A stretch of 64,000 nt of DNA from Pseudanabaena sp. PCC 7367 (GTDB lineage Bacteria > Cyanobacteriota > Cyanobacteriia > Pseudanabaenales > Pseudanabaenaceae), in contig NC_019701.1 in NCBI RefSeq assembly GCF_000317065.1, positions 1,765,001 to 1,829,000 of the forward strand, written 5' to 3'. Position numbers and translations under genes: made by a program. The notes beneath the pieces were generated by a model, which worked only from the letters and a program-made list of their open reading frames with translations, searched no databases and had not been told where the DNA came from. Positions 60,827-63,655 of this stretch are shown here, in pieces; position 1 is the stretch's first letter; each line of letters starts with the position of its first letter.

Positions 60827-60898
60827 AGCCGATGAGGGGATTTGAACCCCTGACCTGCTGATTACGAATCAGCTGCACTACCACTGTGCTACATCGGC
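60827..60898 (-). tRNA. tRNA-Thr (anticodon CGU)
   Basis: 72 nt; cloverleaf read on the minus strand: acceptor GCCGATG/CATCGGC, D arm GCAC...GTGC, anticodon arm GCTGA-TTCGTAA-TCAGC (anticodon CGT), TpsiC arm AGGGG-TTCAAAT-CCCCT, discriminator T. CCA is not encoded. Confidence 0.95.
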
Positions 60899-61158
60899 AG
60901 TTGGAATTAATCCTTAATTTCTAGCATAGAGCATTTAGATTAAGTGTCACATCATTAAATCGCAATTGGCTTTGACGTGACAAGCTCTAGGCAGCAGTCG
61001 ATCGATTATATTCGACAATAATCGAATATTTAAATTAGCACAGAAGTCCGATCGGTTCCAGGCGATCGCATTACTTTTATTGCTTTGGTATGTTCTTAGC
61101 TATTGTGGGGATGATTAGCAAGGGCGATCTGGATTGGATTATATTCCACTTCAAAAAG

Positions 61159-61370
61159 TTTTCGAAATTCGGGTTAAATTTAAATTCATCTAGATTCAAT
61201 TTTCGAAATTCGGGTTAAATTTAAATTCACCTAGATTCAATTTTCGAAATTCGGGTTAAATTTAAATTCATCTAGATTCAATTTTCGAAATTCGGGTTAA
61301 ATTTAAATTCACCTAGATTCAATTTTCGAAATTCGGGTTAAATTTAAATTCATCTAGATTCAATTTTCGA
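61159..61370. repeat. Array of five 41-bp direct repeats upstream of the Fic gene
   Basis: Units start at 61159, 61200, 61241, 61282 and 61323, each beginning TTTTCGAAATTCGGGTTAAA; a sixth partial copy starts at 61364. They are identical except for one position (CATC/CACC), which alternates T, C, T, C, T, implying an 82-bp higher-order unit. No spacers, so not CRISPR. The array ends about 35 bp before the Fic start codon. Confidence 0.93.
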
Positions 61371-61403
61371 GAGAGAATCTCTATCAAGTAGGGCAAAAGG
61401 TGA

Positions 61404-62585
61404 GTGGTTGATAAATCTTTATTTAAGTCGAATAAATTGGGCTTTCTTAGAGAAGTCACAATCCACGGAATAAATGATTGGGCTTTTATTCCAGCACCTT
61501 TACCACAGACATGGAAAATACCCACCGACATTTTACCTCTTCTAATTGAAGCTCATAGAGAGCTTGGCAGACTAGACGGGGTTGGCAGGCACTTGCCATC
61601 ATTTGACCTACTCTTAAAACCTCTACAAAAGCGCGAAGCCTTAAGATCTTCAAGCCTAGAAGGAACTTATGCCACGCCCGAACAATTATTACTGTTTGAG
61701 TTAGACCCTAGAGAACCAAAGTCTGTCCAAGACTCAGTTAATGCGTGGAAAGAAGTTGCAAACTATAGTGCTGCGCTTTCACTAGGAATTAACTTGTTAA
61801 ATGAAGTAGGTATTTCATTACGGTTAATTAGAGAGCTACATAACACTTTATTAGACGGGGTAAGAGGAGCAAATAGAGATCCAGGTAATTTTCGGCGCAC
61901 TCAAGTTCACATTGGTTCTGCTTCTTATCGCAGATTTATTCCACCACCACCAAATGAATTAATGAATTGCCTTTATGACTTAGAAAAGTCAGCAAATCAA
62001 GGCATATCGATCGATCCATTGATATTTTGCTTTATGGTGCATTATCAGTTTGAGACCATCCATCCATTCCTTGATGGTAATGGCAGAGTCGGCCGACTAT
62101 TAATGTCGCTAATGATATATGAATACTGCAAACTCCAGCAGCCCTGGCTATACTTAAGCGCTTACTTTGATAAATATAAAGATGATTACACAAACAATTT
62201 ATTCAAAGTCAGCACCACAGGTGATTTCCATGATTGGATTGTCTATTGCTTAAAGGGCACAATTGAACAATCAAAAGATGCAATATTGCGATCTGATCGT
62301 TTAGTTGCGCTTCGAGAACAATATCGAGAATTATTATCTCAGACAGGTGTGCCATTTAGATTGAATGCAATTATTGATCAGCTATTCAAATCCCCTGTTA
62401 TAACAATACCTAAAATGGCAGAATTGAGCGATGTAGCATACACGACTGCTAAAAGAGACTTGGAAAGATTAATACAGGCAGGAATTGTTATAGATTCTGA
62501 CATTCAATCTCGATCCAAAATATACTTTGCGCCAGAAATTATTGAAATAGTTTTTGGTGAAATTGATACTATATCTGATAGCTGA
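61404..62585 (+). CDS. Fic-domain protein (adenylyltransferase-like), class II
   Basis: 393 residues, GTG start with AGGTGA just upstream. Fic motif HPFLDGNGRVGR with catalytic His220; the N-terminal inhibitory helix SSSLEG (Ser82-Glu86-Gly87) marks class II, self-inhibited enzymes. A C-terminal winged helix (about 310-390, SPVITIPKMAELSDVAYTTAKRDLERLIQAGIV) suggests DNA binding or autoregulation. Likely reaction: AMP transfer to a Ser/Thr/Tyr hydroxyl of a target protein. The gene is AT-rich with few GCGATCGC words, unlike the following gene, suggesting horizontal origin. Confidence 0.92.
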   Translation: MVDKSLFKSNKLGFLREVTIHGINDWAFIPAPLPQTWKIPTDILPLLIEAHRELGRLDGVGRHLPSFDLLLKPLQKREALRSSSLEGTYATPEQLLLFELDPREPKSVQDSVNAWKEVANYSAALSLGINLLNEVGISLRLIRELHNTLLDGVRGANRDPGNFRRTQVHIGSASYRRFIPPPPNELMNCLYDLEKSANQGISIDPLIFCFMVHYQFETIHPFLDGNGRVGRLLMSLMIYEYCKLQQPWLYLSAYFDKYKDDYTNNLFKVSTTGDFHDWIVYCLKGTIEQSKDAILRSDRLVALREQYRELLSQTGVPFRLNAIIDQLFKSPVITIPKMAELSDVAYTTAKRDLERLIQAGIVIDSDIQSRSKIYFAPEIIEIVFGEIDTISDS

Positions 62586-62587
62586 TT

Positions 62588-63655
62588 ATGTTCAATCATC
62601 AATCCAACCGCTTCAACCCGATCGGCTATACTCCCTTCACCATTGACTATCAACCCCTCACTGATGATTGGCGGCGTTGGATTGCGGAAAATAAATTACT
62701 GGGCAATTCCGATGAATCGATTCTGGCGGCGGCAGCTAAGCACAACCTCAATCCGATCGAGGTTAGGCAAGAAATCGCTACTCTCGCCAATCATCCCTAT
62801 TTTCAAGCCGGGCAATATTGTGCCCAAATGCTGGGTAAGTTGCAATCGCACCTGGGGATTTATGCCAAGCTGGCGCAGCTATCACCGCAACCACAACAAA
62901 TCGATTGCCGCGATCGCCTGAGCACCCAGGAATTCCTAGAAAATTACTATGCCACAAATACGCCGGTAATCCTGACCAAGATGATGGATGACTGGCCAGC
63001 GATGCAGTTGTGGACGATCGACTATCTCAAAACCACCTACGGCCAAGTAGAAGTAGAAGTACAAACCAATCGCCAAACCGATCGAGACTATGAAATTAAT
63101 GTCGATGAACATCGGCAAACAGTTTTATTTGCAGAATATATCGATCGGGTTTGTGGTCAGGGCACCAGCAATGACTATTACATGACGGCGATCAATAACA
63201 ATCTAGAAAAAACTAAGCTTAGAAAACTACTAGCAGACATTGAAATTTTTCCCGACTTCCTCGATCCTGGCGATGGTGATGGCAAAGTATATTTTTGGCT
63301 AGGGCCCGCAGGCACGATCACACCGCTGCATCATGATCCAGGCAATTTGATCATGGCGCAGGTAATGGGGCGCAAGCTGTGGCGCTTAATTCCGCCCTAT
63401 CAAACCCAATGGCTGTATAACTACCAGGAATATTACAGCGAGGTGGATTGCGAGAATCCCGACTACGATCGCTACCCGCTCTACCGCAACGTCGAACCGA
63501 TCGAGGTAATCCTGGAACCGGGCGAGGCAATTTTCGTCCCAGTAGGTTGGTGGCATCATGTCCGCGCGATCGATATTACTATTTCGGTTTCGTTTACTAA
63601 TTTCCGCTTCGACAACGAGTTTAATTGGCAGTTTCCGTTTCTGCCCCGTCGTTAG
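62588..63655 (+). CDS. Cupin-like (JmjC-type) oxygenase family protein
   Basis: 355 residues. The cupin_8/JmjC domain: NTPVILTKMMDDWPAM, facial triad PLHHDPGN (His and Asp) and a distal His in VGWWHHV, plus WRLIPPYQT. Expected to be an Fe(II)/2-oxoglutarate hydroxylase. The N-terminal 110 residues (helical) are not part of the fold. It starts 2 bp after the Fic stop, so the two are probably co-transcribed, although base composition differs. Substrate unknown. Confidence 0.85.
   Translation: MFNHQSNRFNPIGYTPFTIDYQPLTDDWRRWIAENKLLGNSDESILAAAAKHNLNPIEVRQEIATLANHPYFQAGQYCAQMLGKLQSHLGIYAKLAQLSPQPQQIDCRDRLSTQEFLENYYATNTPVILTKMMDDWPAMQLWTIDYLKTTYGQVEVEVQTNRQTDRDYEINVDEHRQTVLFAEYIDRVCGQGTSNDYYMTAINNNLEKTKLRKLLADIEIFPDFLDPGDGDGKVYFWLGPAGTITPLHHDPGNLIMAQVMGRKLWRLIPPYQTQWLYNYQEYYSEVDCENPDYDRYPLYRNVEPIEVILEPGEAIFVPVGWWHHVRAIDITISVSFTNFRFDNEFNWQFPFLPRR

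Follow-up and report, generated by a model that had tools for sequence, protein, structure and literature searches.

A putative fic operator-promoter multiplied in tandem before a SoFic-type gene of Pseudanabaena sp. PCC 7367

Directly upstream of a gene for a SoFic-type Fic AMP-transferase, Pseudanabaena sp. PCC 7367 carries a non-coding array of five near-identical 41-bp units, and these units resemble a conserved promoter element of orthologous fic genes. We consider it probable that the array arose by tandem expansion of the fic operator-promoter, to which Fic dimers would bind and thereby repress fic. The array lies in a stretch of 64,000 nucleotides, here called the window, to which all coordinates refer.

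Extent and surroundings of the array

TRF delimited the array at 61159–61370 on the + strand, with a period of 41 bp (5.2 copies, 97% matches, score 410). Its five units occupy 61159–61199, 61200–61240, 61241–61281, 61282–61322 and 61323–61363 and are followed by 7 nt of a partial sixth unit (61364–61370). The units differ solely at unit position 31, with T in units 1, 3 and 5 (the T variant) and C in units 2 and 4 (the C variant), and the strict alternation described in the initial annotation was thus borne out. That annotation had extended the array to 61403, whereas it ends at 61370 and the final 33 nt ahead of the GTG at 61404 are unique sequence. We treat the array as non-coding because stops are present in all six frames.

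The initial annotation had proposed looking for the unit elsewhere in the genome. This search found no second locus with up to three mismatches in the 4.89-Mb genome, and BLAST likewise found none; the array was also absent from relatives, from the genus, from the other 37 genomes of the family and from viral contigs. Within the 1.24 Mb of the genome that was sampled, it was the longest and top-scoring non-coding tandem array, the remaining 23 non-coding rows with scores of at least 80 having units of 8–28 bp and scores of at most 191. The array is far beyond chance, since its unit occupies a single locus and it scores highest among the non-coding arrays sampled.

The simplest reading of the single variable site, and one that fits the alternating variants, is a single change to C that was then duplicated as part of a two-unit block. 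Expansion in 82-bp steps, as had been suggested, is a possible reading whose whole basis is one polymorphic site among five units. The sole variable position falls in the putative operator spacer defined below, a stretch that likewise lacks conservation between orthologs. In AA/TT phasing the array was average compared with the genome and with shuffled units, leaving a bent-DNA role unsupported, and as a structured RNA leader the array was not unusual (z = −1.2). Around the array, Rfam recovered the tRNA alone: a divergent tRNA-Thr (cgt) gene on the opposite side of the array from fic (60827–60898, − strand). Between this gene and the array, GATTATATTC[G/C]AC occurs twice, 133 bp apart (61004–61016 and 61137–61149).

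The fic gene (61404–62585, + strand) has a GTG start, and its 393-aa product is a class II Fic AMP-transferase of the SoFic type; the closest orthologs back the start at 61404, as their protein alignments begin at residue 1 or 2. The Fic_N (PF13784) and Fic (PF02661) domains both scored above the Pfam cut-off, and the protein has the catalytic motif HPFLDGNGR at residues 220–228, which conforms to HPFx[D/E]GNGR, and the inhibitory motif SSSLEG, which conforms to the N-terminal pattern [S/T]xxxE[G/N] and contains Glu86, invariant in the alignment. AlphaFold predicted a C-terminal winged helix in the SoFic arrangement (pLDDT 76–91 across residues 321–380), with the recognition helix at residues 346–358 and residue 347 at the helix start. 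The model matched the fold of SoFic from S. oneidensis (SO_4266; PDB 3eqx/3zcn) over its whole length at ~25% identity (Z 37.8, rmsd 2.8, 356 residues and model range 10–389 against 3zcn). The PADLOC SoFic defence model matched as well (E = 2.8e-101), placing the protein in that group of predicted anti-phage defence proteins, and the protein scored 149.6 bits against the 550-bit cut-off of the NCBIfam SoFic equivalog NF046030. The window Fic is a relative of SoFic, not an equivalog. No close fic relatives were found in plasmid and viral collections.

Early in the fic coding region, two copies of ATTGGGCTTT stand exactly 41 bp from each other (61436–61445 and 61477–61486), probably by chance. 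A Cupin_8/JmjC-like protein gene (62588–63655, + strand) begins 2 nt past fic and is probably co-transcribed with it, and would therefore also be under array control; at the loci compared from relatives, its copies sit elsewhere with no fic nearby.

The fic promoter element in orthologs and in the window

For comparison we used 11 distinct cyanobacterial orthologs, 54–64% identical; extra searches at family, class and order level yielded almost no additional distinct orthologs. Directly 5' of the ortholog start codons we found an inverted repeat of the form TTGAAATTC-N8-GAATTTCAA or TTTTAATTC-N8-GAATTAAAA, usually in two copies ~40 bp apart and overlapping the −35/−10 region. Examples are TTTTAATTC-gcgtgaat-GAATTAAAA at locus L097, TTGAAATTC-gtgatcac-GAATTTCAA at L098 and TTGAAATTC-aattaaga-GAGTTTCAA at L103. 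Reading by eye, we saw −10-like hexamers (TAAAAT, TAAATT or TATAAT) in the gap between the ortholog copies and, in some orthologs such as L104, TTGACA-like −35 elements 17 bp upstream of the −10. A palindrome over the gene's own core promoter, the layout published for the Fic protein CccR, was thus found in the 11 orthologs, and in the window there are five diverged copies.

When 12 genomes were searched with a degenerate palindrome allowing at most one mismatch, it lay within ~100 bp upstream of fic in nine of the 11 ortholog genomes. Elsewhere in the 12 genomes there were 33 sites, compared with 24 for a reversed control pattern, and we regard the palindrome site as specific to fic because these other sites were about as frequent as the control. 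By generic inverted-repeat scores, the repeats were no better than shuffles in several single ortholog promoters; the argument for a functional element is carried by conservation across orthologs, not by such scores. Tandem arrays before the fic orthologs were absent beyond short chance repeats.

Two ortholog loci deserve separate mention. In Phormidium sp. FACHB-1136 (L018, 802–8518), the fic ortholog is flanked by a DUF1156 methyltransferase on one side and a PLD-helicase on the other, each matching a PADLOC defence model. At L019/L121 (L019 being Adonisia turfae), the ortholog is in frame only from about residue 33, with the usual N-terminus in another frame, and may carry a frameshift.

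In the orthologs, the 32 bp that run from the right half-site of the first copy to the left half-site of the second aligned ungapped to the window unit; for L102, 23 of 32 positions were identical (AAATTTCAAAAATGAGCGTTAAATTGAAATTG versus window CAATTTTCGAAATTCGGGTTAAATTTAAATTC, counted by eye). In a scan of 2,487,814 positions of this genome with a 32-bp profile made from the 11 orthologs, the window being excluded, just four positions reached the score of the window unit. Each of these was an array unit, and no other position came within 2 bits. Four array units were also placed at the top by nhmmer, with weak E-values (0.21–0.65), probably because of AT-richness. Because only array units reach the profile score, we take the unit, on these alignments, to be a diverged copy of the conserved fic operator-promoter module, multiplied about fivefold.

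In the register given by the 11 ortholog promoters, the last complete putative operator lies at 61343–61370 (+ strand) and consists of a left half-site, TTTAAATTC (61343–61351), a 9-nt spacer, ATCTAGATT, and a right half-site, CAATTTTCGA (61361–61370). The same layout repeats every 41 bp upstream, with further left half-sites at 61179, 61220, 61261 and 61302. Once per unit, TTAAAT occupies the place of the ortholog −10 (61338–61343 on the + strand in the last case), as a putative promoter element. The window has a 9-nt spacer and a 41-bp period, compared with 8 nt and ~40 bp in the orthologs, and its right half-site CAATTTTCG is a poor mirror of the left TTTAAATTC; owing to the diverged right half-site and the longer spacer, the ortholog pattern in its strict form does not match the sites in the window. 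TTCGAA, which the initial annotation had named among elements that could bind a regulator, gave way in the ortholog comparison to two half-sites, AAATTC and CAATTT, separated by about one helical turn.

The Fic winged helix and rival explanations

The type of half-site followed the recognition helix of the Fic protein. All seven orthologs with TTGAAATTC/TTGCAATTC-type half-sites have Asn347, in a helix start of Tyr-Asn-Thr-Ala, and all four with TTTTAATTC half-sites have Pro347, in Ser-Tyr-Pro-Thr-Ala. Among 358 gap-free columns, 347 alone distinguished the two groups with no variation inside either. The window Fic has Thr347 (Ala-Tyr-Thr-Thr-Ala) and a third half-site type, TTTAAATTC, and the Verrucomicrobial relative L020 (Tyr-Phe-Thr-Ala) has a ATTTAAAT-like repeat (read by eye). 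In a tree built without the winged helix, the Pro347 orthologs did not form a single clade, two changes being required (AU p = 0.042), and with only two changes on the tree the pairing of helix and half-site is not significant after phylogenetic correction. No neighbouring gene was common to more than three of the 11 loci, which leaves Fic as the only constant candidate regulator. It is likely, judging from this pattern, that Fic itself binds the palindromes. The earlier proposal of a regulatory array in the fic promoter, bound by the Fic winged helix, thus draws strong, if indirect, support from the homology of the unit to the ortholog promoter palindrome, from the tracking of half-site type by the recognition helix and from the CccR precedent (PMC9755527); the elements it named were not supported as key elements, and its ongoing expansion by 82-bp steps is no more than possible.

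We propose that Fic dimers would occupy pairs of half-sites through their C-terminal winged helices and, once bound, would block the core promoter and repress fic transcription, as published for CccR. A period of 41 bp is close to four helical turns, which would place successive dimers on about one face of the DNA and allow them to cooperate; with five operators, a toxic AMP-transferase would then repress its own gene more tightly than with the one or two that are usual. Slippage or unequal recombination between repeated half-sites probably produced the expansion, and one spacer mutation would later have been copied within a two-unit block.

The main rival, which we judge somewhat unlikely, is that slippage multiplied a promoter fragment into a neutral minisatellite, in which the units added to the first have no effect. 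This genome commonly carries non-coding tandem arrays (24 rows scoring at least 80 in 1.24 Mb), and because the array is confined to one genome, selection on its copy number cannot be shown. Against this reading, the array is the longest and strongest of the non-coding arrays sampled, sits exactly on a conserved promoter element, roughly keeps the helical spacing between the two ortholog copies (41 bp, against ~40 bp) and terminates at the end of a half-site, although each of these features is compatible with neutrality. The array might alternatively act as multiplied promoters that raise fic transcription instead of repressing it, a proposal that draws on the −10-like TTAAAT in each unit at the ortholog −10 place. 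We find it quite improbable: the window unit lacks a good −35, a promoter consensus scan of the array gave no excess over shuffles and no + strand promoter, and a Sofic-type toxin made in large amounts would come at a cost (PMC12249575).

Half-site symmetry does not by itself name the binder, and the array could derive from the fic operator-promoter and yet serve another, global or distant, regulator. This we regard as improbable, as the sites are not enriched elsewhere in the genomes, unlike those of a global regulon, a conserved neighbour regulator is absent at the 11 loci, half-site type follows Fic residue 347, and CccR offers a precedent for self-binding (PMC9755527). Intergenic tandem repeats are well known in cyanobacteria, and a dispersed LTRR-like repeat, or the remnant of a mobile element, could have come to lie before fic by accident. 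This is almost certainly not the case: the unit is unique in the genome, is absent from other genomes of the family and from viral contigs, and is homologous to the fic promoter of orthologs. An LTRR-like dispersed repeat would occupy many loci, and its occurrence at a single locus refutes that origin for this genome.

Related systems and implications

The closest precedent for repression of fic by its own product is CccR, a Fic-HTH protein of Yersinia pseudotuberculosis that represses its own promoter via inverted repeats near −35/−10 (PMC9755527). Like the window Fic, CccR combines a Fic domain with a C-terminal HTH, a SoFic-like fold and a class II inhibitory motif. Its operator, however, is a single pair, AGATAATCAT-N26-ATGATAATCT, in place of a tandem array, with unrelated half-site sequences, and CccR, unlike the window Fic, is secreted by a type VI system (PMC9755527). 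Because CccR has been published as repressing itself through promoter palindromes, self-repression of this kind is a known principle; the tandem multiplication and the pairing of operator with helix are new here. Coxiella burnetii CbFic2 is likewise a class II Fic protein with a C-terminal winged HTH, which binds DNA, and DNA binding promotes its dimerisation and activity; it differs in having no known specific site, a proposed action on host histones and another N-terminal domain (PMC10628234).

E. coli Sofic was cloned under three lac operators because leaky expression was toxic (PMC12249575), which makes a multi-operator promoter a plausible natural answer to the same problem. In the literature found, an operator array is undescribed for SoFic or Sofic, whereas the window fic has a putative one. 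In phd-doc and other autorepressed toxin-antitoxin operons, the promoter of a Fido-type toxin carries several operator palindromes, and a module-encoded repressor binds them. Autorepression of such operons is cited in PMC2686095. There the antitoxin binds DNA, whereas the window Fic unites toxin and DNA-binding domain in one protein.

Conserved palindromes or repeated boxes were also seen ahead of the fic start codon in other Fic-winged-helix clades (L009, L010, L011, L115, L012 and L109–L116). At L009, L011 and L115, a palindrome of their own, TAGTAAAGT-N12-ACTTTACTA, stands at the same place before fic, and at L012 it is ATTAAACGA-N10-TCGTTTAAT. On L118 (reverse complement, 486–560), AAACTAAAATAG...GTTATTTTA occurs twice exactly 41 bp apart before a Fic-winged-helix gene, a two-operator layout of unrelated sequence. 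The palindromes of these clades, together with a 2009 proposal that HTH tails may regulate fic expression (PMC2686095), point to self-regulation as a common feature of Fic-winged-helix proteins.

What keeps Sofic-type toxins silent before a phage infects the cell is a question that the field has yet to answer (PMC12249575). Across the clade, the promoters compared here suggest a testable answer: each Fic protein has its predicted operator, residue 347 is predicted to set specificity, and one natural strain carries the putative operator five times in tandem. A further idea, which we hold to be rather doubtful, is that operator copy number acts as an evolvable dial, in which slippage between half-sites would add or remove 41-bp operators and so set the tightness of toxin repression and the ease of its release by phage infection. 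More broadly, the HTH tails of Fic proteins may often be self-regulators.
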